Below are positions 3,697 through 51,808 of a stretch of DNA of 64,000 nucleotides, piece after piece. Origin of the DNA: Verrucomicrobiota bacterium (GTDB lineage Bacteria; Verrucomicrobiota; Verrucomicrobiia; Verrucomicrobiales; DEV007); NCBI GenBank assembly GCA_020630975.1, contig JAHDID010000001.1:17687-81686 (forward strand), written 5' to 3'. Under the pieces are notes generated by a model. That model did no database searches. It was given only the letters and a program-made list of their open reading frames with translations, and was not told the DNA's origin. Position numbers and translations under genes: made by a program. How positions within the stretch are numbered: the first letter of the stretch is position 1; every line of letters starts with the position of its first letter.

Positions 3697-4638
3697 CTAG
3701 TGCTCGTGATCATGACCGTGATGGCCATGCGGGATCAGCAGAAAACTGGCTGTTTGTTTACCCGCAAAGCTCACTGTCACTTGAGATTTGAAAGACTTCC
3801 CCTGCAGCCAGGCCGCCGACTCACCACTGTCTCCGGGATAGATGAAGTAATTGGTCTGACCTTCGCGCATGGTCGCATTGCCATCTTCATCCTCATTCTT
3901 GCCCATATTGCGCACTGCCAGCGTCGCCGAGGCCTGCTTGGCATCAGAAAAGCTCACAGTTATTTTTTCGCTAGCCGAGATATCGTAAGGCTGAGTGATA
4001 CCCGCATCTTTGGCGATCCAAAGCTCCAGATCACCTTTATCATCATGTAGCTTTAGCTCGATGTAGCCCCCATCGAATGCTGCTATCATCCCCTCGTGCG
4101 GCCCGAGGTCATCTTCGACTTTGGCCATCCCCGTCGTTATCGCATCAGGGTATTGCGCCTTTAGCAGCTTCAGCACCCCTCCCAGAGTCTTCACGCTCTT
4201 TTTGATGCTTTTTTCATCCTTAGCATCAGTCGATTCATGCAATTTACCGAGAGCTCGCTTGGTATTATTGAGCATACCCGCCACCCGCTTGCGCTTCTTT
4301 TCCTCGACTGCCGTCATCTGGTGATCTAGCTCACCTATCAGCGCACCGAGATTGATCTGCTGCTTGTGCAGCAGATCGATATCGCCCGACGCAGCAGACG
4401 CCGCTACGACAGCTGAGTAGGCATTGATGTGGGCCCACAGATCAGCTGGGTCCTCAGGCACTAGGATCGTAGCATGATGCCCCGCCCCATGGCCGTGTTC
4501 GTGATCATGGTGGTGATCGTGATCATGACTGTGCGGTTTGCCAGACTCGTGGGCCACAGTAAAGCTCGCGACGCAGCACGAAAAGAGTGCCACTGCCGCG
4601 AAGCCACCAGCAGATATAGAAAATGGAGAGCTCTTCAT
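3697..4638 (-). CDS. Secreted histidine-rich, probably metal-binding protein
   Basis: Start chosen at the Met giving a clean signal peptide (MKSSPFSISAGGFAAVALF...); the frame also opens at 4686. The mature N-terminus has a dense His/Asp cluster, about twelve His within 25 residues, and the C-terminus ends in a second cluster (PHGHHGHDHEH). Between them lie a helical segment rich in Lys/Asp and a probable beta domain (about 180-300). His clusters of this kind bind Zn, Ni or Cu; a periplasmic metal buffer or delivery protein is the likeliest role, but no transporter gene is adjacent. It lies 21 bases upstream of the sulfatase on the same strand. I do not recognise a named family. Confidence 0.72.
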   Translation of the reverse strand: MKSSPFSISAGGFAAVALFSCCVASFTVAHESGKPHSHDHDHHHDHEHGHGAGHHATILVPEDPADLWAHINAYSAVVAASAASGDIDLLHKQQINLGALIGELDHQMTAVEEKKRKRVAGMLNNTKRALGKLHESTDAKDEKSIKKSVKTLGGVLKLLKAQYPDAITTGMAKVEDDLGPHEGMIAAFDGGYIELKLHDDKGDLELWIAKDAGITQPYDISASEKITVSFSDAKQASATLAVRNMGKNEDEDGNATMREGQTNYFIYPGDSGESAAWLQGKSFKSQVTVSFAGKQTASFLLIPHGHHGHDHEH

Positions 4639-12760: not shown

Positions 12761-13369
12761 CTAGCGGTTCTTGTAGTTGATGATACCCCGAGCGATGGCG
12801 TCGGCTATCTTCTGGCGGCGAGCCCCTTCGCGCATCTGGTCGCGCTCGCCTTCATTACTGACGAAACCGCCCTCCACGAGACACGCAGGAGCTCGGGTGC
12901 GACGGATCACAGCGAAGCTAGCTCGCTTCACCCCGCGATCGTAGGCATCGACACCCTTGATCAGATCTTTCTGCACGTAGTCGGCCAGTTTGGCGCCTTC
13001 CGAGCCGTAGTAAAACGTCTCGATCCCAGTGATGGTATTCTTCCAGCTGTGGTTGAAGTGGATGCTGACAAACACGGAGTCCCAGTACTTGTTGGCGATA
13101 TTCGACCGCTCGGATAGAGGCACAAAGTTGTCCTTGGAACGAACCATCACCACTTTGAAACCATTTTCCCGAAGCGTGCGCTCCAAGCGGCGAGCCACAT
13201 CGAGGTTGATGTGTTTTTCAAAAACTTTTGATTCCGCAGCCCCCCAGTCTTTCCCACCGTGCCCTGCATCGATCACTACCGTAGAAAAGGCATGAGCAAC
13301 GGAACTTAAAGCGAACCACGAGCTAAGCCCCAAGGCAAAAAGCAAAAATCTAAAGGAGTTAGCATTCAT
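12761..13369 (-). CDS. Secreted N-acetylmuramoyl-L-alanine amidase (Amidase_3)
   Basis: A 202-residue zinc amidase that cleaves the lactyl-Ala bond of peptidoglycan. A signal peptide (residues 1-27, ending AHA) is followed directly by the catalytic domain: VVIDAGHGG with His37, a second ligand Glu51, HFNHSW with His104, and CLVEGGFVSN with catalytic Glu166. There is no AMIN, LysM or SPOR targeting domain, so it is a minimal enzyme of about the domain's size. The upstream 236 bases to the divergent RlpA-like gene are AT-rich near its start and probably hold its promoter. Confidence 0.9.
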   Translation of the reverse strand: MNANSFRFLLFALGLSSWFALSSVAHAFSTVVIDAGHGGKDWGAAESKVFEKHINLDVARRLERTLRENGFKVVMVRSKDNFVPLSERSNIANKYWDSVFVSIHFNHSWKNTITGIETFYYGSEGAKLADYVQKDLIKGVDAYDRGVKRASFAVIRRTRAPACLVEGGFVSNEGERDQMREGARRQKIADAIARGIINYKNR

Positions 13370-13605
13370 AAATATTTTTAAAATTTAGATAATAAAGGTG
13401 GCTAAATCAACCAATTCTGTTAAAATTTCCCTCCAACAAAATGGAATGTGGTGCGTATTCAGTGTGACGAATCAACACGCGACATAAGCAACACATTCAA
13501 AGTAAAAGACGCTTGGGGCACATGTCCCCTTAGGACTCCTCCAAGATTTCGGCGTCATTTCCCCCTTCACCCCTAAAAAATATAGTTAAACACCCCTAAC
13601 CCCTC

Positions 13606-33432: not shown

Positions 33433-35694
33433 TTAGGCCAAGCTATTGTTGCGACGAATAGCCCATTCGCCGACAAAGCAAAGGATCGCTGCGATCAGCA
33501 GCCAGGGCGTGTGCCAGATAGGTGTGGTTTTTATTTCCACCTCAGGGACTTCGGTCGAGGCGATCAGGTCGACCAAGTCGTCGACCTGATCTGCATCGAT
33601 GATCTGGCCACCAGTCTGCTGGGTGATCTGCTCGCTCCAGGCGCGGTTGATGCCGAGGGTGCGATACTCCTCCGCATCTCGATTGATCGCCCAGCCGGTC
33701 TCGACAGGGTGCCAGGTGAGCTGACCATCGTTCAGTGGTTTGGCTACTGCCCGCACTGTATAGCCACCATCTTGATTGGCGAGAAACACGCCTCGATAGA
33801 GACCAGGCTCGACATCGTCTGGATTGGCGGGGAAGGTATAGATCTCGCCACTGGGGTCAGTCACTGTCAGAGTGATCTGGCCATTGTACTGTGGATCGAA
33901 CTTTTCATTCTTTAGCCATACTTTGATCTGTTTCTCCTGGCTGTCGGCTTCACCTGAGTCGACTTGTATCCTGATGCGGTCGGGTACATCTACCGTCAGA
34001 TGGCGCATGAACTGCCGCCATAGTTTGTCGCGATCGTTAGCTTGATTGGGCTCTAGAAATCCCCAGCGCCACATGTCGCCGATCATGCAGGCAGCGACCT
34101 TACCCGCGCCAAACCTTTGTACGGCGATGGCGGGTATAGTGGCACCGGTCTCTGCATTCTGCACTGTCGCATAGAGAGAGGCGCCGGGTTTGGTGGCGCG
34201 CACTTGGCTGACACTGGTGAAGCTGGCCATATTTCGCAAGCGAGCCTTTTCCTGTGCCTCTAGCTGGCGGAGCCGTAGCCAAAACTCTAGCATGCCCTCG
34301 CGTGTCAGCCCCATGCGTAGCTGGTGATCGGCAGCTACCGGTGCTGAGCCTGCGCCTAGGTAGACCGGTAGCAGATCGGTGAATAGCGAGTCATCATACC
34401 CACCATCGGCAAACGACTCGGAACCGCCGAGAAACAATACGGATCCACCCCGCTTAGCGACGAATGTCTCGAGTAGTTCTTGTTGGTCGGGAGTAAAGAA
34501 ATCCGCCTCTAGATCATCGATCACGACAGCCTTGTATGGGTAGAGGCCCTCCGCATAGGTGGGAAAGCCATTCGCCAGCTCATCATCCTGCACGACTAGC
34601 CGCACCAGTACAGGCTCGTCGTAGCCCTCTGTCTCGTCTTCGCGATCGAAGCCGCGGAACAGTGGGTTGCTTTCCTCACCCGAGCGACCGCGCCATTGAA
34701 ACTTTGGCTCCCGTTTGGCGATACGCTGCAGGGCCGAAAGCTTGAATGATTGATCTTGGTGCAAGGCGCGACGAAAAAATTTGAAGTCCCAATTGGGTCG
34801 CCCAGATAGGTAGAGGATACGGTGTGGTCCCGTGTTTTGCTCGACCGCGATGATTCGCTCGTTATTCGCCAGTGTGGCTTCTGTCTCGGGAGCGTCGGTA
34901 GCCACCTCGATACGGTAAAAGCTGACACCCAGCTGTGTCGGGCGAAAGGTAAAGCGAACCTTCTTTGATGACTCGCCCTCGAAACGCACCAATTGAGAGG
35001 CAACTGGCTCGGTGGCTTCGCCCTGCCGATACAGGCTGGCCGTTGCCTGCGGGTAACCACGAGATGTTAAGTGAACCTCGACCGTGATCGGAGAATCCTC
35101 GAATGCGCTTTCGGTAATTAAGACAGTACCAATCGCCAAATCTTTGCTAGGCATACCTCCACCGGGATGCACCACAAACACTGGGGGCAGCGAGGCGCTC
35201 GATAGGTCGATAGCGGCATCGGTGTGGTTGCCATCGGTGAGTATGACGACCGCAGACAGTGGCTGGCCATCGTAGCGATTGGCCAGATCGGATAGCCCAG
35301 AGTTGAGCCGCGATGCTGGGCCTGCCTGATCGAGCTCACCAAACGAGGCCAGAGGAGTTAGTTTGGAATCAAGTGCGAAGCGACGCACTTGGAACTGAGA
35401 CTCTATATGATCGACGAATGTGCTCGTGGAGGGGTTATCCGAATGGAGTAATTCTCGCAATTGCTCGGCACGACTATTTTCACTCGGACTCTCTTTTACG
35501 GAAAGGCTGCGACTATTATCGGCGACGATGGCGACGATGTTTTTGCCGGCCTTAGGTATCGATTGGATCCAGGTGAGTTCGAGTAGGCAAAGTGCTAGTA
35601 GAGCCAGACCTAGAAGTTTTAGACCAATAGCAGCGATACGCTTGCCTAGCGGTAATGACTTAGTTTTTACATAGGTATAGCATAGCAGCGCCAA
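33433..35694 (-). CDS. Membrane vWA/GATase-like protein
   Basis: At least 753 residues. Two hydrophobic segments open the protein (one cut by the chosen start, the other KLLGLALLALCLLELTWI), then a vWA-like domain with VADNSRSLS (MIDAS D59-S61-S63) and VVILTDGNHTD, Ig-like parts, and a class I glutamine-amidotransferase-like domain without the catalytic Cys (YKAVVIDDLEADFFT, then FVAKRGGSVLFLGG). A last transmembrane helix (TPWLLIAAILCFVGEWAI) is near the C-terminus. The first available start is TTG at 35694; the frame is open back to 35784 and encodes more of the first helix (TWLPYIVVAWCLC), so an unusual start such as ATC at 35776-35778 is possible. Confidence 0.8.
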   Translation of the reverse strand: MALLCYTYVKTKSLPLGKRIAAIGLKLLGLALLALCLLELTWIQSIPKAGKNIVAIVADNSRSLSVKESPSENSRAEQLRELLHSDNPSTSTFVDHIESQFQVRRFALDSKLTPLASFGELDQAGPASRLNSGLSDLANRYDGQPLSAVVILTDGNHTDAAIDLSSASLPPVFVVHPGGGMPSKDLAIGTVLITESAFEDSPITVEVHLTSRGYPQATASLYRQGEATEPVASQLVRFEGESSKKVRFTFRPTQLGVSFYRIEVATDAPETEATLANNERIIAVEQNTGPHRILYLSGRPNWDFKFFRRALHQDQSFKLSALQRIAKREPKFQWRGRSGEESNPLFRGFDREDETEGYDEPVLVRLVVQDDELANGFPTYAEGLYPYKAVVIDDLEADFFTPDQQELLETFVAKRGGSVLFLGGSESFADGGYDDSLFTDLLPVYLGAGSAPVAADHQLRMGLTREGMLEFWLRLRQLEAQEKARLRNMASFTSVSQVRATKPGASLYATVQNAETGATIPAIAVQRFGAGKVAACMIGDMWRWGFLEPNQANDRDKLWRQFMRHLTVDVPDRIRIQVDSGEADSQEKQIKVWLKNEKFDPQYNGQITLTVTDPSGEIYTFPANPDDVEPGLYRGVFLANQDGGYTVRAVAKPLNDGQLTWHPVETGWAINRDAEEYRTLGINRAWSEQITQQTGGQIIDADQVDDLVDLIASTEVPEVEIKTTPIWHTPWLLIAAILCFVGEWAIRRNNSLA

Positions 35695-35793
35695 GCACAG
35701 GCACCAGGCGACTACGATATAGGGTAACCAAGTGGGATTGGCTATCGATATAGATGAGACGATGGATACGGGATCGATAGTGGTTTAGGTTTA

Positions 35794-38700
35794 TTAGTTC
35801 GCCTGGGTGGAACCCAGTTTTTGGTAGTATTTTTCGACCAAGTCTTTGTAGGCCGTAGGGGCGGGATCTCGGTCGATCCTGACTTGCTGGTCGGCGTCGT
35901 CCTCCTGGCGGGCGATCTCTTCTTTTACATTCGTGCGTAGTCGGCGCAGAGGCTGCACCAGTCCTGTCTCTACGACCGACCACTCTGGCGGTCGACTGTG
36001 GCGTTTGAAATCGCTGCGATACTCTCGTGAGCGCAGACGGATGCGTGTCGCTTCTCGCTTTAGATCGGCATCGCCTAGCATGATCTCGACCTCCTTAAGC
36101 ATCTCAGCCCAGCGATTGTATTCTTCGCCGGTGATGGGGCGGTCGTCGCCATGGTCGATGGGCGTGTCCTCATCGAAAGCATCTAGGAAGGAGGCTTTTC
36201 TGCGACCGGTAGGTAGAGAAAGCTGCCGATTGGTGCCTGAGCTGTGCTGGCGGCTGCCTCCGGTAATGGTGGCGTCGGACTTTTCGGTTGTTGGTTGGTT
36301 GTCGTGCTGGTCATCTTGTTGGTTGTTGGTGAATTCCCCTTGGGCGCTGGTCGAGAGGGCCGACGAGGACGTCGGCGTTCCCGGGGAGCCTTTGGCTTTG
36401 GCCTTTCCCTCACCTTCGGCTTCGCCCTCACTTTCACCTTCACCTTTGTTTTTGCTATCGGATGAGGAGTTCGCTGCTTGAGATCCTTTCTGACCCTGCC
36501 CTTGGCCTTTGGCTCCTTTACCGCCTTTCCCCTGTCCTTTGCCCTCACCTTTGGTGCCGCCTTTTCCAGCTGCTAGCGTTCCTTCTTTTCCCTTTTCTTG
36601 GCCTTTGGCTCCTTTACTACCTTTCCCCTGTCCTTTGCCGTCACCTTTAGAGGCGGTCTTTTCGGCTAGTTCTCCGCCTTTACCTTTACCCTTGCCTTTC
36701 TCTTCACCCCTGCCTTTAGATCCAGGGTTCTGTTCGCCTTCTTTACCTTCAGCCTCGCCTTTGCCCTGAGCGTTTTCTTGGTTTGTTTCCGTGCCTTTGG
36801 ATTGGCCTTCACCTGCCTGCGCTAGTTCTTGCTCACCAGATAGGTCTTCGATCTTGCTGCTACTGCCTGGTTGGTTTGGTTTACCAGTTTGGGCACTGCG
36901 GTTTTCTTTATTTAGCTCTTCGATAAGTTGGGCTAGTTGACGGTCGGCGCGTTTCAGTGCTTCGGCCTCACTACCGATCACCGAGTCGGCTGCGGTATCG
37001 ATTTCCTTCTGTAGTTGATCGATGTTCTCAGCGGCCTTGGCTTCGGTCTCGCTGGCTTTAGCGTAGGCACCTCGGCGGACTTCTTTGGCGGCTTCGTCGA
37101 GCGACTCGGTCGTTCCCTGAGTTTCGACATTGCGGATAGCCTGATACAGTTGCCTCGATAGCAATGGCTCTTGCTCCTCTGAAGCACGAGTGATGTCGCG
37201 CATCTTTTCGAGTACATCGGTTAATTCCTTTTGCTGCTGGCGGATCGCTTTTTCGTGTTGATCCCGTTGGCTTTTCGAGGCGGCTGCCTTGCTACCTTTT
37301 TGAGCTTGGTTAGCTAGAGATTCGGTGAGTTTATTCTGTTCTTCGGCTAGCTTATTGGCGGCCTCGCGTAGCTCCTGCATGTGGGCTGCGAATTGACTAG
37401 CATTGGCTTTGCGCATTTCCTCAGTTGATTCACGCATTTGTTCTTCGGCTCGTTTGGAAGCGGTTGTCGCTTTGGCCAGATTTTTCTCAGACATGGCCTT
37501 GGAGGTCTCAGTTGCCTGCTTGCGCGCTTTCTCTAGTGCAGCCATGGTTTCGGCGAGTTGCTCCGATTTGCCCATGCGGTCCATTTTCTCGAGCATCTTG
37601 TCGATCTCGGTCAGCATCTCGCGCTGCTCCTCGCGTAGGCGTTTGAGTTTGTGCTCGATCTCCTCCTTTTCTTCCGGAGTGGTGGCTGCTTCCAGTGATG
37701 CGAGCAGCTGTTGCAATTGATCGGTGATCGCTTCTTGGCGTTTCGCCAGGTCCAGCATCCGCTTGAAGTGCATAGCTAACTCTTCGTCCATCGGTTTGAG
37801 CTCTGGACCTGCGGGGCGTTGCATCTCGTAGCGGCGATCTTTCTGGGAGAACTTCAGGTTCATCGCCTGCTTCTTTTGGCGCTTGGCTTCAGGCACTCCC
37901 TCGCCGGCTTTGACCATACGTATCTCGCGACCTAGGGCATTCATCAGCCGCTCGTAGGCGGTCTGCTCGTGATCCATAGAGGGGTCTAGCTGGTCTCGCT
38001 CGCCTGCGGCGACTTTCTCCAGAGTGGCCTGAGCTTCGACCATCGCCTGGCGGGCATCTTGGTAGATCGATTTCAGCACTTCGTCTTTTATCAGTAGTAA
38101 TTTTTCATCAATCAGCTCAATGATGTACTGCTGCATTGCGGCTAGGCTAGTACCATCTTGCTTTAGTGCCTCTATCTCTGGGGAAGTGCGCTCGACTTTC
38201 CAGGTGGCATTGATCAATTCTTTCTGTAGGTCGAGACACTTTTGAGCATTGGGCTGACCATCGGCTTTCACCTTGGCTGGGCCTTCGCGAAAGATTTCTT
38301 CGAAATGGCGCACCTCGATGAAATACATCTCACTTTCGGTTCGCCGGTTGCTAGCATCGGGGCCCTGATCCTCGGCCCAGAAGTGGTAGGTCAGCAGAGT
38401 ATTGGGCCTTGCGCCGAGCGTCTCAAAGTCGAGTGGCCATTTAAGGTCGTGCTTGCGTAGTGCCTGCTCTTCCTCTGGCTTGGGTAGCTCGAAATGAACC
38501 TCCTCGACCTTGCCATCGAATCGATAGGTCACCCCGGCGGTCTTCAGGCCCAAGTCATCGATAATAGTTGCCTCTGGTGTGATCTCTTGGATCGGTGTGA
38601 CCCGAGTATCGAGACTAGGAAATTTTAGCTTCACCACTGCGGGCCGATTCTCTTTTACTAGTATGCTCAGGTACGGCGGATTGCGATTCTCTCGTCCTTC

Positions 38701-39795
38701 GGCATCTGATAGGATTAATTCGTAGCGCTCTGATTTCGGTGGCTGGGTTTTGATAGCTATCCGGTTGGGTTTGGCGGGATCGATTATCAGCGGGATCTCC
38801 GTGCCATCTTTTGCGATTAACTTACCAGCGGTGATCGGTTTGTTACATTCCAGAGTCCACTCGACCGCATCGCCCTCGAAGACGCGGGCCAGATAGGTAT
38901 CTTCGGTTAGCTGCGGCTTGCGATCGGAGCCGCTGGGAGGAATGACCTTGGCATCGGAGCGAACCAGTTTGGGAAGTTCGAAGGTGGTTATCTGGTATTC
39001 GCTACTCTTGTGACCTTTGGCGGTCTCGATGCGATAGGTGCCATCGCCAGGTACTGACTCGATCGTCACGCCAAACTCTGGATCTTCGAGCTTCTTCTTC
39101 ATCGGCAGGCGCCGCAGAAATTTCCCGTCTAAACAATCGACGACAAGAGTCGCATGGTCTGGGATCGACTCGGGGAAAAGCGCTGTAACCACTAGGCGGG
39201 ACTCTCGCTCCACTTCCACATCGCCTGGATTGACGATGATCTGCATATCTACAGTCAACGCTTCGGCGGGCGGCTCCTCTTCATTAGCCACTGTGATAGT
39301 GGAACCCGGACGGTATTTGATACATACACCCAGCGAGACGATAAACAGCGCCAATGCGAGTAGTGCCATACGCTGTAACTTTTGTAGATAACCAGCCGAG
39401 TGATTCGCTGCGACTTTTTTATCGATCGCAGCTCTCACCGCGTCTTGAATGACCTGCCGACTCAGGTAGTCAGGAGTCGCCTCTTTCTCCGCCTGGTGGG
39501 CTGTCGCGAGTAGGTATTTCAGCTTTGGGTTTTGCTCGCCGATATCAGCGAGTACTTGTCTCTCGCTAGGTATACCTCTACCAGCTAGGCACGCAGCGAT
39601 CACGACTAAAGCTGCAGCAATAAGCAGGGCGGTGGTCCAGGTCACCTGAAAAGCAAATACCAAACAGGCAAGAAGCACTGCGCTGATCAACAGAGCCGTA
39701 GCGATCCACTGCAGTCGCTTGATACGCCGTATCTTGGCTAGCACTTGGCTTACCAGTCGACTCATGGTGGGGAGTGGCGGTGGTTGCTTGCTCAT
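35794..39795 (-). CDS. Giant membrane coiled-coil protein with Gly/Lys-rich low-complexity region (DUF4175-like)
   Basis: A 1333-residue protein. Three hydrophobic helices lie within the first 165 residues (WIATALLISAVLLACLVFAF, TALLIAAALVVIAACLA, LALALFIVSLGVCI). Beta-sandwich-like domains follow to about 490. A long coiled coil of short heptads (about 500-960) leads to a Gln/Gly/Lys/Glu-rich segment (about 985-1150) with repeated GKGQGKG and GGKGAKG units, then a helical C-terminus with RRKASFLDAFDE. The layout recalls DUF4175-type proteins beside vWA/MoxR genes. It could be the scaffold of the complex. It is followed by the vWA/GATase gene. Confidence 0.8.
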   Translation of the reverse strand: MSKQPPPLPTMSRLVSQVLAKIRRIKRLQWIATALLISAVLLACLVFAFQVTWTTALLIAAALVVIAACLAGRGIPSERQVLADIGEQNPKLKYLLATAHQAEKEATPDYLSRQVIQDAVRAAIDKKVAANHSAGYLQKLQRMALLALALFIVSLGVCIKYRPGSTITVANEEEPPAEALTVDMQIIVNPGDVEVERESRLVVTALFPESIPDHATLVVDCLDGKFLRRLPMKKKLEDPEFGVTIESVPGDGTYRIETAKGHKSSEYQITTFELPKLVRSDAKVIPPSGSDRKPQLTEDTYLARVFEGDAVEWTLECNKPITAGKLIAKDGTEIPLIIDPAKPNRIAIKTQPPKSERYELILSDAEGRENRNPPYLSILVKENRPAVVKLKFPSLDTRVTPIQEITPEATIIDDLGLKTAGVTYRFDGKVEEVHFELPKPEEEQALRKHDLKWPLDFETLGARPNTLLTYHFWAEDQGPDASNRRTESEMYFIEVRHFEEIFREGPAKVKADGQPNAQKCLDLQKELINATWKVERTSPEIEALKQDGTSLAAMQQYIIELIDEKLLLIKDEVLKSIYQDARQAMVEAQATLEKVAAGERDQLDPSMDHEQTAYERLMNALGREIRMVKAGEGVPEAKRQKKQAMNLKFSQKDRRYEMQRPAGPELKPMDEELAMHFKRMLDLAKRQEAITDQLQQLLASLEAATTPEEKEEIEHKLKRLREEQREMLTEIDKMLEKMDRMGKSEQLAETMAALEKARKQATETSKAMSEKNLAKATTASKRAEEQMRESTEEMRKANASQFAAHMQELREAANKLAEEQNKLTESLANQAQKGSKAAASKSQRDQHEKAIRQQQKELTDVLEKMRDITRASEEQEPLLSRQLYQAIRNVETQGTTESLDEAAKEVRRGAYAKASETEAKAAENIDQLQKEIDTAADSVIGSEAEALKRADRQLAQLIEELNKENRSAQTGKPNQPGSSSKIEDLSGEQELAQAGEGQSKGTETNQENAQGKGEAEGKEGEQNPGSKGRGEEKGKGKGKGGELAEKTASKGDGKGQGKGSKGAKGQEKGKEGTLAAGKGGTKGEGKGQGKGGKGAKGQGQGQKGSQAANSSSDSKNKGEGESEGEAEGEGKAKAKGSPGTPTSSSALSTSAQGEFTNNQQDDQHDNQPTTEKSDATITGGSRQHSSGTNRQLSLPTGRRKASFLDAFDEDTPIDHGDDRPITGEEYNRWAEMLKEVEIMLGDADLKREATRIRLRSREYRSDFKRHSRPPEWSVVETGLVQPLRRLRTNVKEEIARQEDDADQQVRIDRDPAPTAYKDLVEKYYQKLGSTQAN
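36501..36661 (-). repeat. In-frame 96-bp-period repeat in Gly/Lys-rich region
   Basis: Two copies of about 60 bases beginning CTTGGCCTTTGGCTCCTTTA on the plus strand start at 36501 and 36597. The 96-base offset keeps the frame and encodes KGxGKGQGKGxKGAKGQ twice. Such low-complexity DNA can expand or shrink by slippage or recombination, so strain-to-strain length differences are likely. Confidence 0.7.
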
Positions 39796-39799
39796 ATCG

Positions 39800-39850
39800 G
39801 TAGTATCAGGTGGCTTCGGGTGTGGCTGTGGCGGAGGATGAGCTGCGGCG
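39800..39850. repeat. 51-bp direct repeat, copy 1
   Basis: GTAGTATCAGGTGGCTTCGG... runs to 39850 and matches 40285-40335 with a single change (G/A at position 13). It encodes the same 14-residue C-terminal tail (RRSSSSATATPEAT minus the first residue where frames begin) in the small gene that the second copy encodes in the vWA gene. Confidence 0.9.
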
Positions 39851-40264
39851 GATTAGACCTACTGGTAATTTGGAACCAAATGTACAAACTAGGATCGCAA
39901 ATATGGTGATCACGAAATACGGTAGAGAGCATACAAACGTTCCGAACTCATACCTAGCTCCAAGATCACCACGAATCGTGTCTGATAACGTTGGTTTAAA
40001 CGGCTCAAGACTGGAAGTGTTTGAGGAGAAAATTTGACTCACAGACTCTCTGGGTGAGTAGCCAGAGGGCATCATAATGGGATACTTGTTATTATTTAAA
40101 CCGAATTTGTTATCGATTTTGTGTTTTGTAACCATCACCTGGATACTGCCTGATGATGAGTTGATAATCATAAAGTTTGGAAATGACAGACTCGCAGTGA
40201 AATAATGGGACAGAACCCAAATACTTAATGTAAGTAACAGCGGGAGGTACAGAATAATCTTCAT
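39806..40264 (-). CDS. Small two-helix membrane protein in a repeat-bounded insert
   Basis: A 152-residue protein from the Met at 40264 (MKIILYLPLLL), the start that gives a normal signal or membrane segment; the frame extends upstream to 40402 but overlaps the vWA gene. A second transmembrane helix (CSLPYFVITIFAILVCTFG) lies near residues 112-130, so most of the protein would face the periplasm. The last residues, RRSSSSATATPEAT, are identical to the C-terminus of the vWA protein upstream, because both are encoded by copies of a 51-bp repeat. Codons are clearly AT-richer than those of the cluster. No family is recognised. It interrupts an otherwise conserved-looking gene order. Confidence 0.6.
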   Translation of the reverse strand: MKIILYLPLLLTLSIWVLSHYFTASLSFPNFMIINSSSGSIQVMVTKHKIDNKFGLNNNKYPIMMPSGYSPRESVSQIFSSNTSSLEPFKPTLSDTIRGDLGARYEFGTFVCSLPYFVITIFAILVCTFGSKLPVGLIRRSSSSATATPEAT

Positions 40265-40284
40265 AGCATATTTTAATCCTAACA

Positions 40285-40335
40285 GTAGTATCAGGTAGCT
40301 TCGGGTGTGGCTGTGGCGGAGGATGAGCTGCGGCG
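40285..40335. repeat. 51-bp direct repeat, copy 2
   Basis: Second copy of the 51-bp repeat, covering the stop codon and last 14 codons of the BatA-like gene. Together with 39800-39850 it bounds a 434-bp segment holding most of the small membrane-protein gene. Confidence 0.9.
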
Positions 40336-42312
40336 ACGGGAGCCGATTAGGGTTTCGACCAGGATGAAAATAAATACCAAACAGGCGAGCCATCGAAACC
40401 ACTTTTGTTGATTCTCTAGCTCCACCTCGGTGAGTGTCCTACCGGGAGGTGCTAGCTGGGAATCGTCTGGATCGGGTGCCTGGACTGAGTCGATACCAAA
40501 GCGTGAAAATGTATCGAGATCCATCGGCTCTAAGAGACTCTCGCGAGGATCGAGATTGACGATGTAGGTCACTTGCTTGTCACCCTGAGCGAATGGATAG
40601 AAACCGGGGCGATCTGCTTGATACGGCTGCTGAGCGCGCTGCCCGTCGATGGTGATAGGCAGGTCGGAAGGGAAATCGCGATCCAGCGGCAAGATATCGC
40701 CTACCGTAAAGCTCGCCGACGCGCCGGGGCGAATACCGCTGTGATGAAGTAGGGAATAGAGGAAGGGAACAAACTTAGTAGATAGAGCTAGCTGACTATC
40801 TTGTTTGCTCCAGCTGGTGGTGATGCCATAGAGAGTGCCCTGACCGATCGTTTTTTCAAAAAGAGCCGGGCTACCGTCTTCGTAACTGATGAGTGTGCGG
40901 GTGTCGGGCAGGTCGACTAGTTGATAATTCCAGACACGAATATTACTAAAATCTCGGGTCTCGATGGCGGCAAATGGTCGCAAGACAGGGTGTTTGAAAT
41001 CGACCTGCTCGAAAAGCGTGTAGTCCCGACCTGTGGTGGCGGCGCGAACCTCGATCGATGAATCGGCTAGTAGAGTTCTAAGCGCAGTGCTGGCCTCTGG
41101 GCGATCGATGACGAGTAGACAGGTCTTTCCAGCCTGTAGCTCTTTGAGCAGGTGCTGGCTGTCACTATCGGTCAGCGAGCCGTCGGCGATGTAGAAGTCG
41201 ACATTCTCTGTGGCTCGACTTTCTAGGCGAGGCTCCATGCGATGGGTATTGATCATCGCTTGGTCGAGGTAGAACGCTAGGCTATCGGCATTCTCCACCA
41301 ATGAATCCGTCCACAGCGAGAGCAAAGGCTGCGCTGGCTCTGGTGGGGGGAAATACACCGTATTGTCGAACTCTATACCATCGCCAAATAGCTCTAGAGG
41401 AGAGCCAGGTGGAAAACCAGCCGGGGCCGATACGACAACACTCTGCCCAGGGGCGATGTAGTGCGTCTCGTATAGGTCTGCAGCAGTCCAGTTGAGCTTA
41501 AAGGAGCCAGAGCTGTGTTTGGGGTGATTGGTGATGCGGACTCTAGGCTGAGAGGGATCGGCGCTAGCGACTGTATTGAGCGAAGCATTCTGAGTGAAAT
41601 CGGAATCGACCCGCAGTACCGATAGCTCGATCTCCTCTGGCCACACCATGGAGGTGAGTCGCTCCCACTCGCTGCCTTGCTGTAGATCGGTGATGAGGAT
41701 GACCTCGGATCTCTCTACCGGGCCTTCGTCGAGAGTGGCCTGCTCCTGCATGGCCTCGATGGCGCGTAGCAGCGCTAGATCGATACGGCTACTACCCCAG
41801 CCTGGAGATAGTGAATTGATCTTTTGGCTGAGTAGAGATTTGCGCTGACCGCTATCCACATCCTGCCACGAGGTGTAGGAAATGAGCTCGCTGACCTGGT
41901 GATCGAAATGGTAGACTGCTACCTGATCTCGAGCTTTGATCTTTTTGATCTGGCTGAGCGCTAGGTCTTTAGCACTCTGCCAGGTGCCCTCGCGTCGCAT
42001 CGAGGCGCTAGTATCGATGACGATACTGTAGCGCGATACGGTCTGGTTGGTCAGGCTGAGCAGCGACTCATTATTTAAAAACGGCCGGGCAAAAACCAAG
42101 ACTAGAAACAGGATGGCTAAGATGCGTAGCAGTAGTAGCAGCCAGTCCTCCAGCTTAGCCATGCGCCGATTGCTAAGTGTTTCACTAGCATTCCAGAATA
42201 GCAGTGAGCTGACCGGGGTCGACTCGCGCGGCGGCTTGCGCTTGAGGTGTAGGTACAGTGGCAGGGCGATTGCCAGTGCTCCTAGTAGGTAGATGGGGTA
42301 GAGTAGAGACAT
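40291..42312 (-). CDS. BatA-like membrane vWA protein
   Basis: A 673-residue protein with the BatA-type N-terminus: two helices (LLGALAIALPLYLHL and WLLLLLRILAILFLVLVFA) flanking a conserved RRMAKLEDW loop. A vWA domain follows with a complete MIDAS, IDTSASM (Asp100, Ser102, Ser104) and ILITDLQQGSEWE. The middle contains a GATase-like part (NVDFYIADGSLTDSDSQ) and the end has a third helix (WLACLVFIFILVETLIGS) and a Ser/Thr tail. vWA proteins of this kind are partners of MoxR ATPases, whose gene ends 26 bases upstream. Confidence 0.88.
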   Translation of the reverse strand: MSLLYPIYLLGALAIALPLYLHLKRKPPRESTPVSSLLFWNASETLSNRRMAKLEDWLLLLLRILAILFLVLVFARPFLNNESLLSLTNQTVSRYSIVIDTSASMRREGTWQSAKDLALSQIKKIKARDQVAVYHFDHQVSELISYTSWQDVDSGQRKSLLSQKINSLSPGWGSSRIDLALLRAIEAMQEQATLDEGPVERSEVILITDLQQGSEWERLTSMVWPEEIELSVLRVDSDFTQNASLNTVASADPSQPRVRITNHPKHSSGSFKLNWTAADLYETHYIAPGQSVVVSAPAGFPPGSPLELFGDGIEFDNTVYFPPPEPAQPLLSLWTDSLVENADSLAFYLDQAMINTHRMEPRLESRATENVDFYIADGSLTDSDSQHLLKELQAGKTCLLVIDRPEASTALRTLLADSSIEVRAATTGRDYTLFEQVDFKHPVLRPFAAIETRDFSNIRVWNYQLVDLPDTRTLISYEDGSPALFEKTIGQGTLYGITTSWSKQDSQLALSTKFVPFLYSLLHHSGIRPGASASFTVGDILPLDRDFPSDLPITIDGQRAQQPYQADRPGFYPFAQGDKQVTYIVNLDPRESLLEPMDLDTFSRFGIDSVQAPDPDDSQLAPPGRTLTEVELENQQKWFRWLACLVFIFILVETLIGSRRRSSSSATATPEAT

Positions 42313-42337
42313 CTAGATGAGGTGGCAGCCTAGTGGC

Positions 42338-43318
42338 TCAGACCGTGTCGATCAGTTCGGTGATGATGGAGCTGACATTTCGGCCCTCGGCCTCAGCCTT
42401 GTAGTTTGGCAGGATACGGTGGCGCAGCACTGAGTGGGCCAGTGCTAGCAGGTCTTCTTTGTCCACATAGTTGCGCCCCTCGAGTAGGGCGCGAGTCTTG
42501 GCACCGAGCACTAAGTTCTGCGCACCGCGAAGTCCGGCGCCCCACTGGACGAGTTCGTCGACGAAGGAAGGCGTGCCTTCCTGACCGGGGCGCGAGGCAC
42601 TGACTAGGTCGACAGCGAATTCCACTAGCTCTTTGGCGATAGGCACCAGCTTTACGATCTGCTGGCACAGCTGCAGCTGCTCTGCGGTATAGAGAGTCTG
42701 GAGCTGGGGGGCTGCCTGGCTGGTGGTTTGCTCGACTACTCTGACTTCGTCGGCCTTGGGTAGGTAGTCGACTACGATATTTACCATGAATCGATCTAGC
42801 TGTGCCTCTGGTAGAGCGTAGGTGCCCTCCATCTCGATTGGGTTTTGAGTAGCGAGCACGAAGAATGGCTCTGGCAACTTGTGCGTCATGCCCGCAGCGG
42901 TTACCTGATGCTCCTGCATGGCCTCGAGCAGAGCGGCTTGAGTCTTTGGCGGTGTGCGGTTGATCTCGTCTGCCAGGATCAAGTTGGCAAAGATGGGACC
43001 TTTTTGAAATTCCAGTCGTCGGCCCTCTGCAGTGTCTTGGAGCACCTCGGTGCCGACGATGTCTGAGGGCATCAGGTCGGGGGTGAACTGGATGCGGCTA
43101 AACTGTAGGGTAAACAAATCGGCTAGAGAATTGACCAAAAGTGTCTTGGCCAATCCAGGCGCACCAGTGAGTAGCGCGTGGCCGCCAGACATGAGTACCA
43201 CGAGAATCTGATCGATCACCTCCTCCTGGCCGATGATCACTTTGCCTAGTTCGGCCTTTATCGTGGCACGGCTATTTTGGATGAGAGCTACGGCTTCGGC
43301 CTGTTGTTGGTCGGTCAT
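42338..43318 (-). CDS. MoxR-family AAA+ ATPase
   Basis: A 326-residue AAA+ protein. Walker A GAPGLAKT (52-59), Walker B LILADEINR (113-121), sensor 1 VLATQNPIEMEGTYALPEAQLDRF and the MoxR-typical LEAMQEHQVT are complete. MoxR ATPases act with vWA proteins as chaperones that insert cofactors or remodel complexes. Here one ATPase is linked to one DUF58 and two membrane vWA proteins. It starts 28 bases after the DUF4159 gene ends. Confidence 0.95.
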   Translation of the reverse strand: MTDQQQAEAVALIQNSRATIKAELGKVIIGQEEVIDQILVVLMSGGHALLTGAPGLAKTLLVNSLADLFTLQFSRIQFTPDLMPSDIVGTEVLQDTAEGRRLEFQKGPIFANLILADEINRTPPKTQAALLEAMQEHQVTAAGMTHKLPEPFFVLATQNPIEMEGTYALPEAQLDRFMVNIVVDYLPKADEVRVVEQTTSQAAPQLQTLYTAEQLQLCQQIVKLVPIAKELVEFAVDLVSASRPGQEGTPSFVDELVQWGAGLRGAQNLVLGAKTRALLEGRNYVDKEDLLALAHSVLRHRILPNYKAEAEGRNVSSIITELIDTV

Positions 43319-48460: not shown

Positions 48461-49189
48461 CTAAAGCAGCTCAAATGTAATATCTACTTTTGCACGAATC
48501 TCCAAACGCCCCACAGCTAGACCACCCCCAGATCCTGAAATATTATGTACGCTAACACCATTATCGTAATCGCCGTAACTAGAACGAGAAGAGCTTGGAT
48601 CTTCAACTATAGATAACGGCTTTCCGATCTTCATCCCAAGCGCCTCGGCCATTTTTTCTGCTTTCCCCCTCGCACTTGCGATCGCTTGTAAACGAGCCGC
48701 GTCCCTATGCTCTGTCGCATTAGAACTACTTAGGACCACAGAATCAATAGAGATACCCGAAAGTTTCGCCAAGCCCACCCACAAATCCTGATACATAGTC
48801 AAATCAGTGACCAGAAAACCTATCTGAGTCCGTGCTTCATACCCTTCATAAACATAATCATTTCCCTTTCGAACACGGTTTTCAGAAAGCTGCACGTGGT
48901 TAGTTGATATCTCTCCCCTATCGATTTTCGCACTGTCCGCCAAATAAGCGATAAGCTGCTTCACCCTTGCGTCCTGAATCTCTGCAGCCTTTACCAAATC
49001 ACTATCGATAGTCTTAATAGATACAGCCCAAAGCATTTGGTCAGGCGCGACTTTATTCATAAAAACACCTCTAACTGCAATGCTCGGAGTCGAAGTGAAG
49101 TTTACGACTTCAGCAGCTGAGTTGACGGCGGAGAGCTTCAAAAGAAGGAGAGAACAAATACCAAAAAGATGAAATCCACGCATATGCAC
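48461..49189 (-). CDS. SIMPL-domain (DUF541) periplasmic protein
   Basis: A 242-residue protein with a signal peptide (FHLFGICSLLLLKLSAVNSA) followed by one SIMPL domain: IAVRGVFMNKVAPDQMLWAV, then ARVKQLIAYLADS, GYEARTQIGFLVTDL, and the helix ARLQAIASARGKAEKMAEALG. These periplasmic proteins are linked to oxidative-stress protection and oligomerise; their biochemistry is unclear. Codons are AT-rich, as in the convergent CXXCH gene. Divergent from the U32 gene. Confidence 0.88.
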   Translation of the reverse strand: MHMRGFHLFGICSLLLLKLSAVNSAAEVVNFTSTPSIAVRGVFMNKVAPDQMLWAVSIKTIDSDLVKAAEIQDARVKQLIAYLADSAKIDRGEISTNHVQLSENRVRKGNDYVYEGYEARTQIGFLVTDLTMYQDLWVGLAKLSGISIDSVVLSSSNATEHRDAARLQAIASARGKAEKMAEALGMKIGKPLSIVEDPSSSRSSYGDYDNGVSVHNISGSGGGLAVGRLEIRAKVDITFELL

Positions 49190-51768: not shown

Positions 51769-51808
51769 CCTCCTCTCCTCCTCTCCTCCTCTCCTCCTCT
51801 CCTCCTCT
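51769..51808 (+). repeat. Five perfect tandem copies of CCTCCTCT
   Basis: The 8-base unit repeats without error from 51769 to 51808, seven bases after the U32 stop. On the plus strand each unit contains the anti-Shine-Dalgarno core CCTCC; the reverse strand is a run of AGAGGAGG. Tandem units of this kind change copy number by slippage. Confidence 0.95.

Follow-up and report, generated by a model that had tools for sequence, protein, structure and literature searches.

A small accessory gene appears to have been inserted into a MoxR/BatA operon of this genome together with a long target duplication of the BatA 3' end, a reading to which we assign a probability of roughly two in three. The window (the whole stretch of 64,000 nucleotides that was analyzed) carries the genes concerned on the minus strand, in the order MoxR AAA+ ATPase (42338-43318; PF07726), BatA-like vWA protein of 673 aa (40291-42312; PF07584 and PF13519), small gene of 152 aa (39806-40264), membrane protein of 1333 aa (35794-39795), whose gene starts 10 bp beyond the stop of the small one, and finally another large membrane protein (33433-35694) with a weak GATase1_like match, which is the last of the cluster. 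The three named Pfam domains all score above cut-off, and the order MoxR, BatA-like protein, large membrane proteins is shared with other MoxR-BatA/vWA (Bat) operons, from which the cluster differs in being a long-branch extra copy and in containing the putatively inserted small gene.

A small gene between two copies of the BatA 3' end

The small gene is bounded by two direct copies of a 51-bp sequence, located at 39800-39850 and 40285-40335, which match at 50 of 51 positions and enclose 434 bp of unique sequence (39851-40284). A match of this quality at such spacing is not chance. The copies differ solely at 39812 (G) versus 40297 (A), which is a synonymous difference, and the edges of the repeat are sharp: beyond the 51 bp the alignment drops to noise. 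Read on the minus strand, the proximal copy (40285-40335) represents the native 3' end of the BatA/vWA gene, i.e. the sequence encoding RRSSSSATATPEAT followed by the stop codon and 6 bp, while the distal copy (39800-39850) provides the last 14 codons of the small gene, its stop codon and likewise 6 bp, ending 4 bp before the downstream ATG. Both ORFs thus terminate in RRSSSSATATPEAT-stop, each encoded by one copy. The repeat is accordingly a host target sequence, the BatA 3' end, rather than the ends of an element, and its length far exceeds that of ordinary transposon target duplications. The 434-bp insert contains the ribosome-binding-site-like sequence AGGA, the ATG and the entire small ORF except for the last 14 codons. 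Neither the 51-bp sequence nor the 434-bp segment has a further copy in the 7.14-Mb assembly, and no donor locus for the 434 bp was found.

The GC content of the insert is 0.389 as compared to a mean of 0.544 (sd 0.036) for 434-bp windows, which is essentially the minimum of the window. When the small ORF is considered without its tail, its total GC content falls on the 1.0 percentile of 690 ORFs, but its GC3 of 0.435 only on the 5.2 percentile, so that the AT-richness noted by the first-pass annotation points only partly to foreign DNA. The sole other region of the window in which 434-bp GC falls below 42% includes an ORF at 48464-49189 with low GC3 (0.40). The sequence features reported by that annotation were reproduced, namely the exact coordinates of the repeats with their single mismatch, the common tail of both proteins, the low GC content of the segment between them and the absence of a transposase. 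Indeed, no transposase or integrase is encoded in the insert, whose only ORF of at least 80 aa is the small membrane protein, and the outer 40 bp of the two insert ends share no 8-mer that could indicate terminal inverted repeats. Being single-copy, devoid of a transposase and without inverted ends, the insert does not qualify as insertion sequence or MITE, and with 434 bp and one small ORF it does not correspond to an integrase-borne element residing at a gene 3' end either. RNA folding across the start of the small gene is unremarkable (z 1.06), and no terminator-like site was found in 39600-40500. A second, weaker direct match (23 bp, 87%) links 39650-39672 and 40367-40389, which lie in membrane helices encoded by the two neighbouring genes.

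The small protein and its homologues

Nearly all of the 152-aa protein is encoded in the insert. Residues 1-19 and 109-127 are hydrophobic, the layout of a two-helix membrane protein. Divergent homologues, which likewise begin with MK and thereby support the assigned start, were detected in two genomes of the genus, G024 and G007. Local alignment yielded a score of 84 for the G024 homologue versus 28.7 (sd 4.8) for segment-shuffled sequences and of 74 for the G007 homologue versus 30.9 (sd 5.4), and in neither case did any of 2000 shuffles score as high. Alignment of the G024 and G007 homologues with each other reached 36 versus 28.1 (sd 4.5), a value attained by 143 of 2000 shuffles. Because of this weak score, the three sequences lend thin support to a common family. 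A profile made from them retrieved its own three members clearly from 33 genus genomes, as must be the case, and only two additional weak matches with E about 0.03. By the same threshold, both ends of the G024 ORF but only the C-terminal end of the G007 ORF are hydrophobic, and the C-termini of the two homologues differ. Both genes sit at unrelated loci; the G024 gene lacks flanking direct repeats of at least 12 bp, and the G007 gene has a single 12-bp pair. A weak match in the source genome (G000) at G000:C15 was dropped, as it contains four internal stops.

The small protein has no Pfam match above cut-off (DUF2140 at E 0.039 only) and no meaningful match in NCBIfam, PHROGs or PDB sequences, and nothing identified it as a restriction-modification protein. 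No homologue or carrier was found in the viral contigs, plasmids or phages searched. A single-sequence AlphaFold2 model had a mean pLDDT of 52 and was set aside. Most likely, we guess, the small protein serves an accessory function in the membrane and its gene is transcribed together with the MoxR/BatA operon.

BatA junctions and similar duplications

The source genome has two MoxR/BatA clusters, one in the window (33433-43318) and one at G000:C88:20698-22725. The BatA copy of the C88 cluster falls among those of relatives, with G024 as its sister (56%), while the BatA-like protein of the window is an extra copy on a long branch and shares 31-37% identity with the aligned relatives. No orthologue of the window cluster was found: BatA identity did not exceed 38% in 384 genomes of the class and reached a maximum of 38-39% across all comparators. 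A MoxR scan of the genome contigs retained 80 loci, the best at 66%.

We compared 41 junctions, each extending from a BatA homologue to a homologue of the 1333-aa gene and taken from the relatives' set (26), the C88 cluster, the class search (5) and named genomes (9). This count excludes eight loci in which the contig ended within BatA or a downstream homologue was not detected; it likewise excludes those MoxR-scan loci, 70 of 80, that had no BatA match of 120 bits. None of the 41 junctions contained a gene comparable to the small gene, with comparators that are paralogous or divergent (BatA identity at most 38-39%) rather than orthologous. In 39 of them the following gene has a possible start no more than 150 bp from the BatA stop codon and often overlaps it; the exceptions are L146, with 158 bp, and L031, where 336 bp hold just a 42-aa ORF on the same strand. 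When the insert and one 51-bp copy were deleted in silico, a stop-to-ATG gap of 10 bp resulted, which is typical of the operon. The restored gap and the absence of the gene at all 41 junctions make the small gene most simply a lineage-specific addition.

These data favour the proposal of the first-pass annotation that an insertion provided the newcomer with the 3' end of its host gene, although an orthologous empty allele with one repeat copy was not among the comparators. The observation that would have spoken for an old gene, its presence in relatives with diverged flanks, was not made at any of the junctions, albeit in divergent or paralogous clusters. A search for the segment elsewhere in the genome, as suggested there, ended with the single copy described above. 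The event was also called recent, which agrees with the near-identity of the repeats; this is the sole basis for dating as no orthologous cluster was found, and gene conversion could maintain such identity as well.

Similar duplications were surveyed in the window and 110 further stretches, covering 2.10 of 7.14 Mb with an overlap of about 100 bp between neighbouring stretches. Only a minority of the isolated repeat pairs in this sequence are as long and as similar as the 51-bp pair. Of 114 isolated pairs listed, nine have the stop codon of an ORF of at least 100 aa in or beside a copy. By a sorting made after the rows had been seen, seven of the nine were set aside: L107 and L260 are whole-gene or large duplications, L085, L254, L123 and L074 have identities of 82-84%, and the repeat of L095 is a dispersed palindrome. 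Left with the window was L277 (G000:C17), where a 43-bp repeat with one mismatch (13072-13114 and 13456-13498) comprises the final codons of a 347-aa gene. Its AT-richer insert of 341 bp (GC 0.43) is non-coding, with a longest stop-free run of 48 aa, and contains a dispersed inverted-repeat element that matches many sites throughout the genome; lacking a long ORF and carrying such an element, it may have arisen differently. The two cases establish no mechanism but leave a recurrent capture process as a possibility.

Several further features were noted. At 4480-4520 and 4852-4892 of L095 (G000:C39), direct copies of the palindromic element, which has dozens of matches across the source genome, enclose a 107-aa hydrophobic ORF. 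A small ORF at 9993-10250 of L099 resembles a REP-associated Y1 transposase. Tandem repeats of the 8-bp unit CCTCCTCT occur at 51769-51808 of the window and at 15661-15693 of L074; as the unit length is not divisible by three, they could act as a reading-frame switch.

Proposed origin of the small gene

The joining reaction is our inference. In the simplest case, the target would have been broken twice, or replication would have restarted, at points some 51 bp apart; both ends would have been copied and a stray fragment joined between them; in-frame fusion to the BatA tail would then have given the newcomer its stop codon. Since the target was copied, neither BatA nor the downstream gene was damaged, which is how an event of this type could have persisted. 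Ku-dependent capture by end-joining was rejected, because Ku (PF02735) is absent from the assembly, whereas the positive control was found in one genome of 14. Simpler assumptions are therefore breaks at offset positions that were filled in, or a template switch during replication.

An arrangement of exactly this kind, repeat-insert-repeat, would also result from Campbell-type integration, in which a small circle carrying the 51-bp sequence beside the small gene, excised for instance from another strain, recombines homologously within the repeat. A similar route is proposed in PMC2869330 for transposed Arabidopsis genes with genic direct repeats, and RecA-independent recombination between short repeats has been shown in E. 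coli (PMC5426353). However, this route requires that the BatA tail was already joined to the small gene, and hence explains spread rather than origin. Moreover, the genome has no further copy of the repeat or the small gene, and homologues are missing from the viral, plasmid and phage sequences searched. We regard it as unlikely.

The distal 51 bp might alternatively be the remnant of a larger copy, left when a tandem duplication of the BatA end was followed by deletion and replacement. The hexamer CTAATC, which directly precedes the distal repeat and recurs 9 bp before the proximal one, looks as if the copy had once been longer, and a whole-gene tandem pair does exist in the source genome (L260). 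Yet at least two extra events would be needed, and their outcome would have to be an undamaged in-frame ORF that also has homologues elsewhere. A six-base match close to a junction may arise by chance; CTAATC is a possible remnant of microhomology or of an initial duplication that was longer, but may also be fortuitous. On balance this course of events seems rather improbable.

A more far-reaching version of the insertion model, which is decidedly speculative, would have the lineage repeatedly capture DNA at gene 3' ends while duplicating some 40-50 bp of the target, possibly through target-primed reverse transcription. Single small genes would thereby be transferred from operon to operon as self-repairing cassettes. 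The insert resembles the body of a transcript without a promoter or stop codon of its own. Six matches to reverse transcriptase (PF00078) are present in the source genome (contigs C31, C138, C49, C126, C13 and C142), a count that serves as a feasibility check of this route only.

An artefact of assembly or scaffolding was considered as well, given that the assembly is a draft and that at six places in the 2.10 Mb surveyed a stretch of exactly 100 N stands between perfect copies of a 55-bp repeat (L097 1718, L102 15826, L248 10135, L258 10078, L270 1338, L280 769). The latter are unmerged contig overlaps, which implies that repeats of at least 55 bp may be lost from the assembly. The window is free of N and the known scaffold artefacts have another form; a mismatched 51-bp repeat, being shorter than the apparent 55-bp word, should be unambiguous to such an assembler, and the insert is an intact ORF with homologues in the same genus. 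An artefact is thus very improbable. Least credible is a functional tail, i.e. a common tag or interaction end kept by selection or gene conversion: both tails do follow a C-terminal hydrophobic helix and the single repeat difference is synonymous, but the BatA tails of the relatives examined are unconserved, differing low-complexity sequences and the two small-protein homologues end differently. Judged from the unconserved and low-complexity nature of those BatA tails, the shared tail probably came along as a passenger and provides the stop codon.

Insertion with a long target duplication has precedents. In Helicobacter pylori, inserted genes flanked on both sides by long direct repeats of the host target have been described (Nobusato et al. 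2000, Gene 259:99-108, as cited in PMC1643837, PMC4978471, PMC3031569 and PMC2869330), as at the present locus. According to such citations, the inserts are frequently, though not by definition, restriction-modification genes, in contrast to the small membrane protein described here, and the event was recognized against another strain, whereas our comparators are non-orthologous clusters. The transposed Arabidopsis genes share with the locus that direct repeats of host genic sequence flank a moved single gene, and PMC2869330 describes these repeats as homologous to the target site in the sister species; they differ in belonging to a plant genome, and the explanation preferred by the authors is that a circular product of recombination was inserted. 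The E. coli H47 genomic island likewise is a mobile segment between direct repeats without a recombinase of its own, but spans 12.6 kb between imperfect repeats of 144-148 bp (PMC5426353).

Taken together, the locus is a good fresh example of an already known kind of event. If the insertion model holds, it would be a clean case of a single small gene entering an operon without a mobile element, leaving its neighbours intact and being supplied with a stop codon, and would extend a pattern best known from the restriction-modification genes of H. pylori to an unrelated lineage and a gene of unrelated type.
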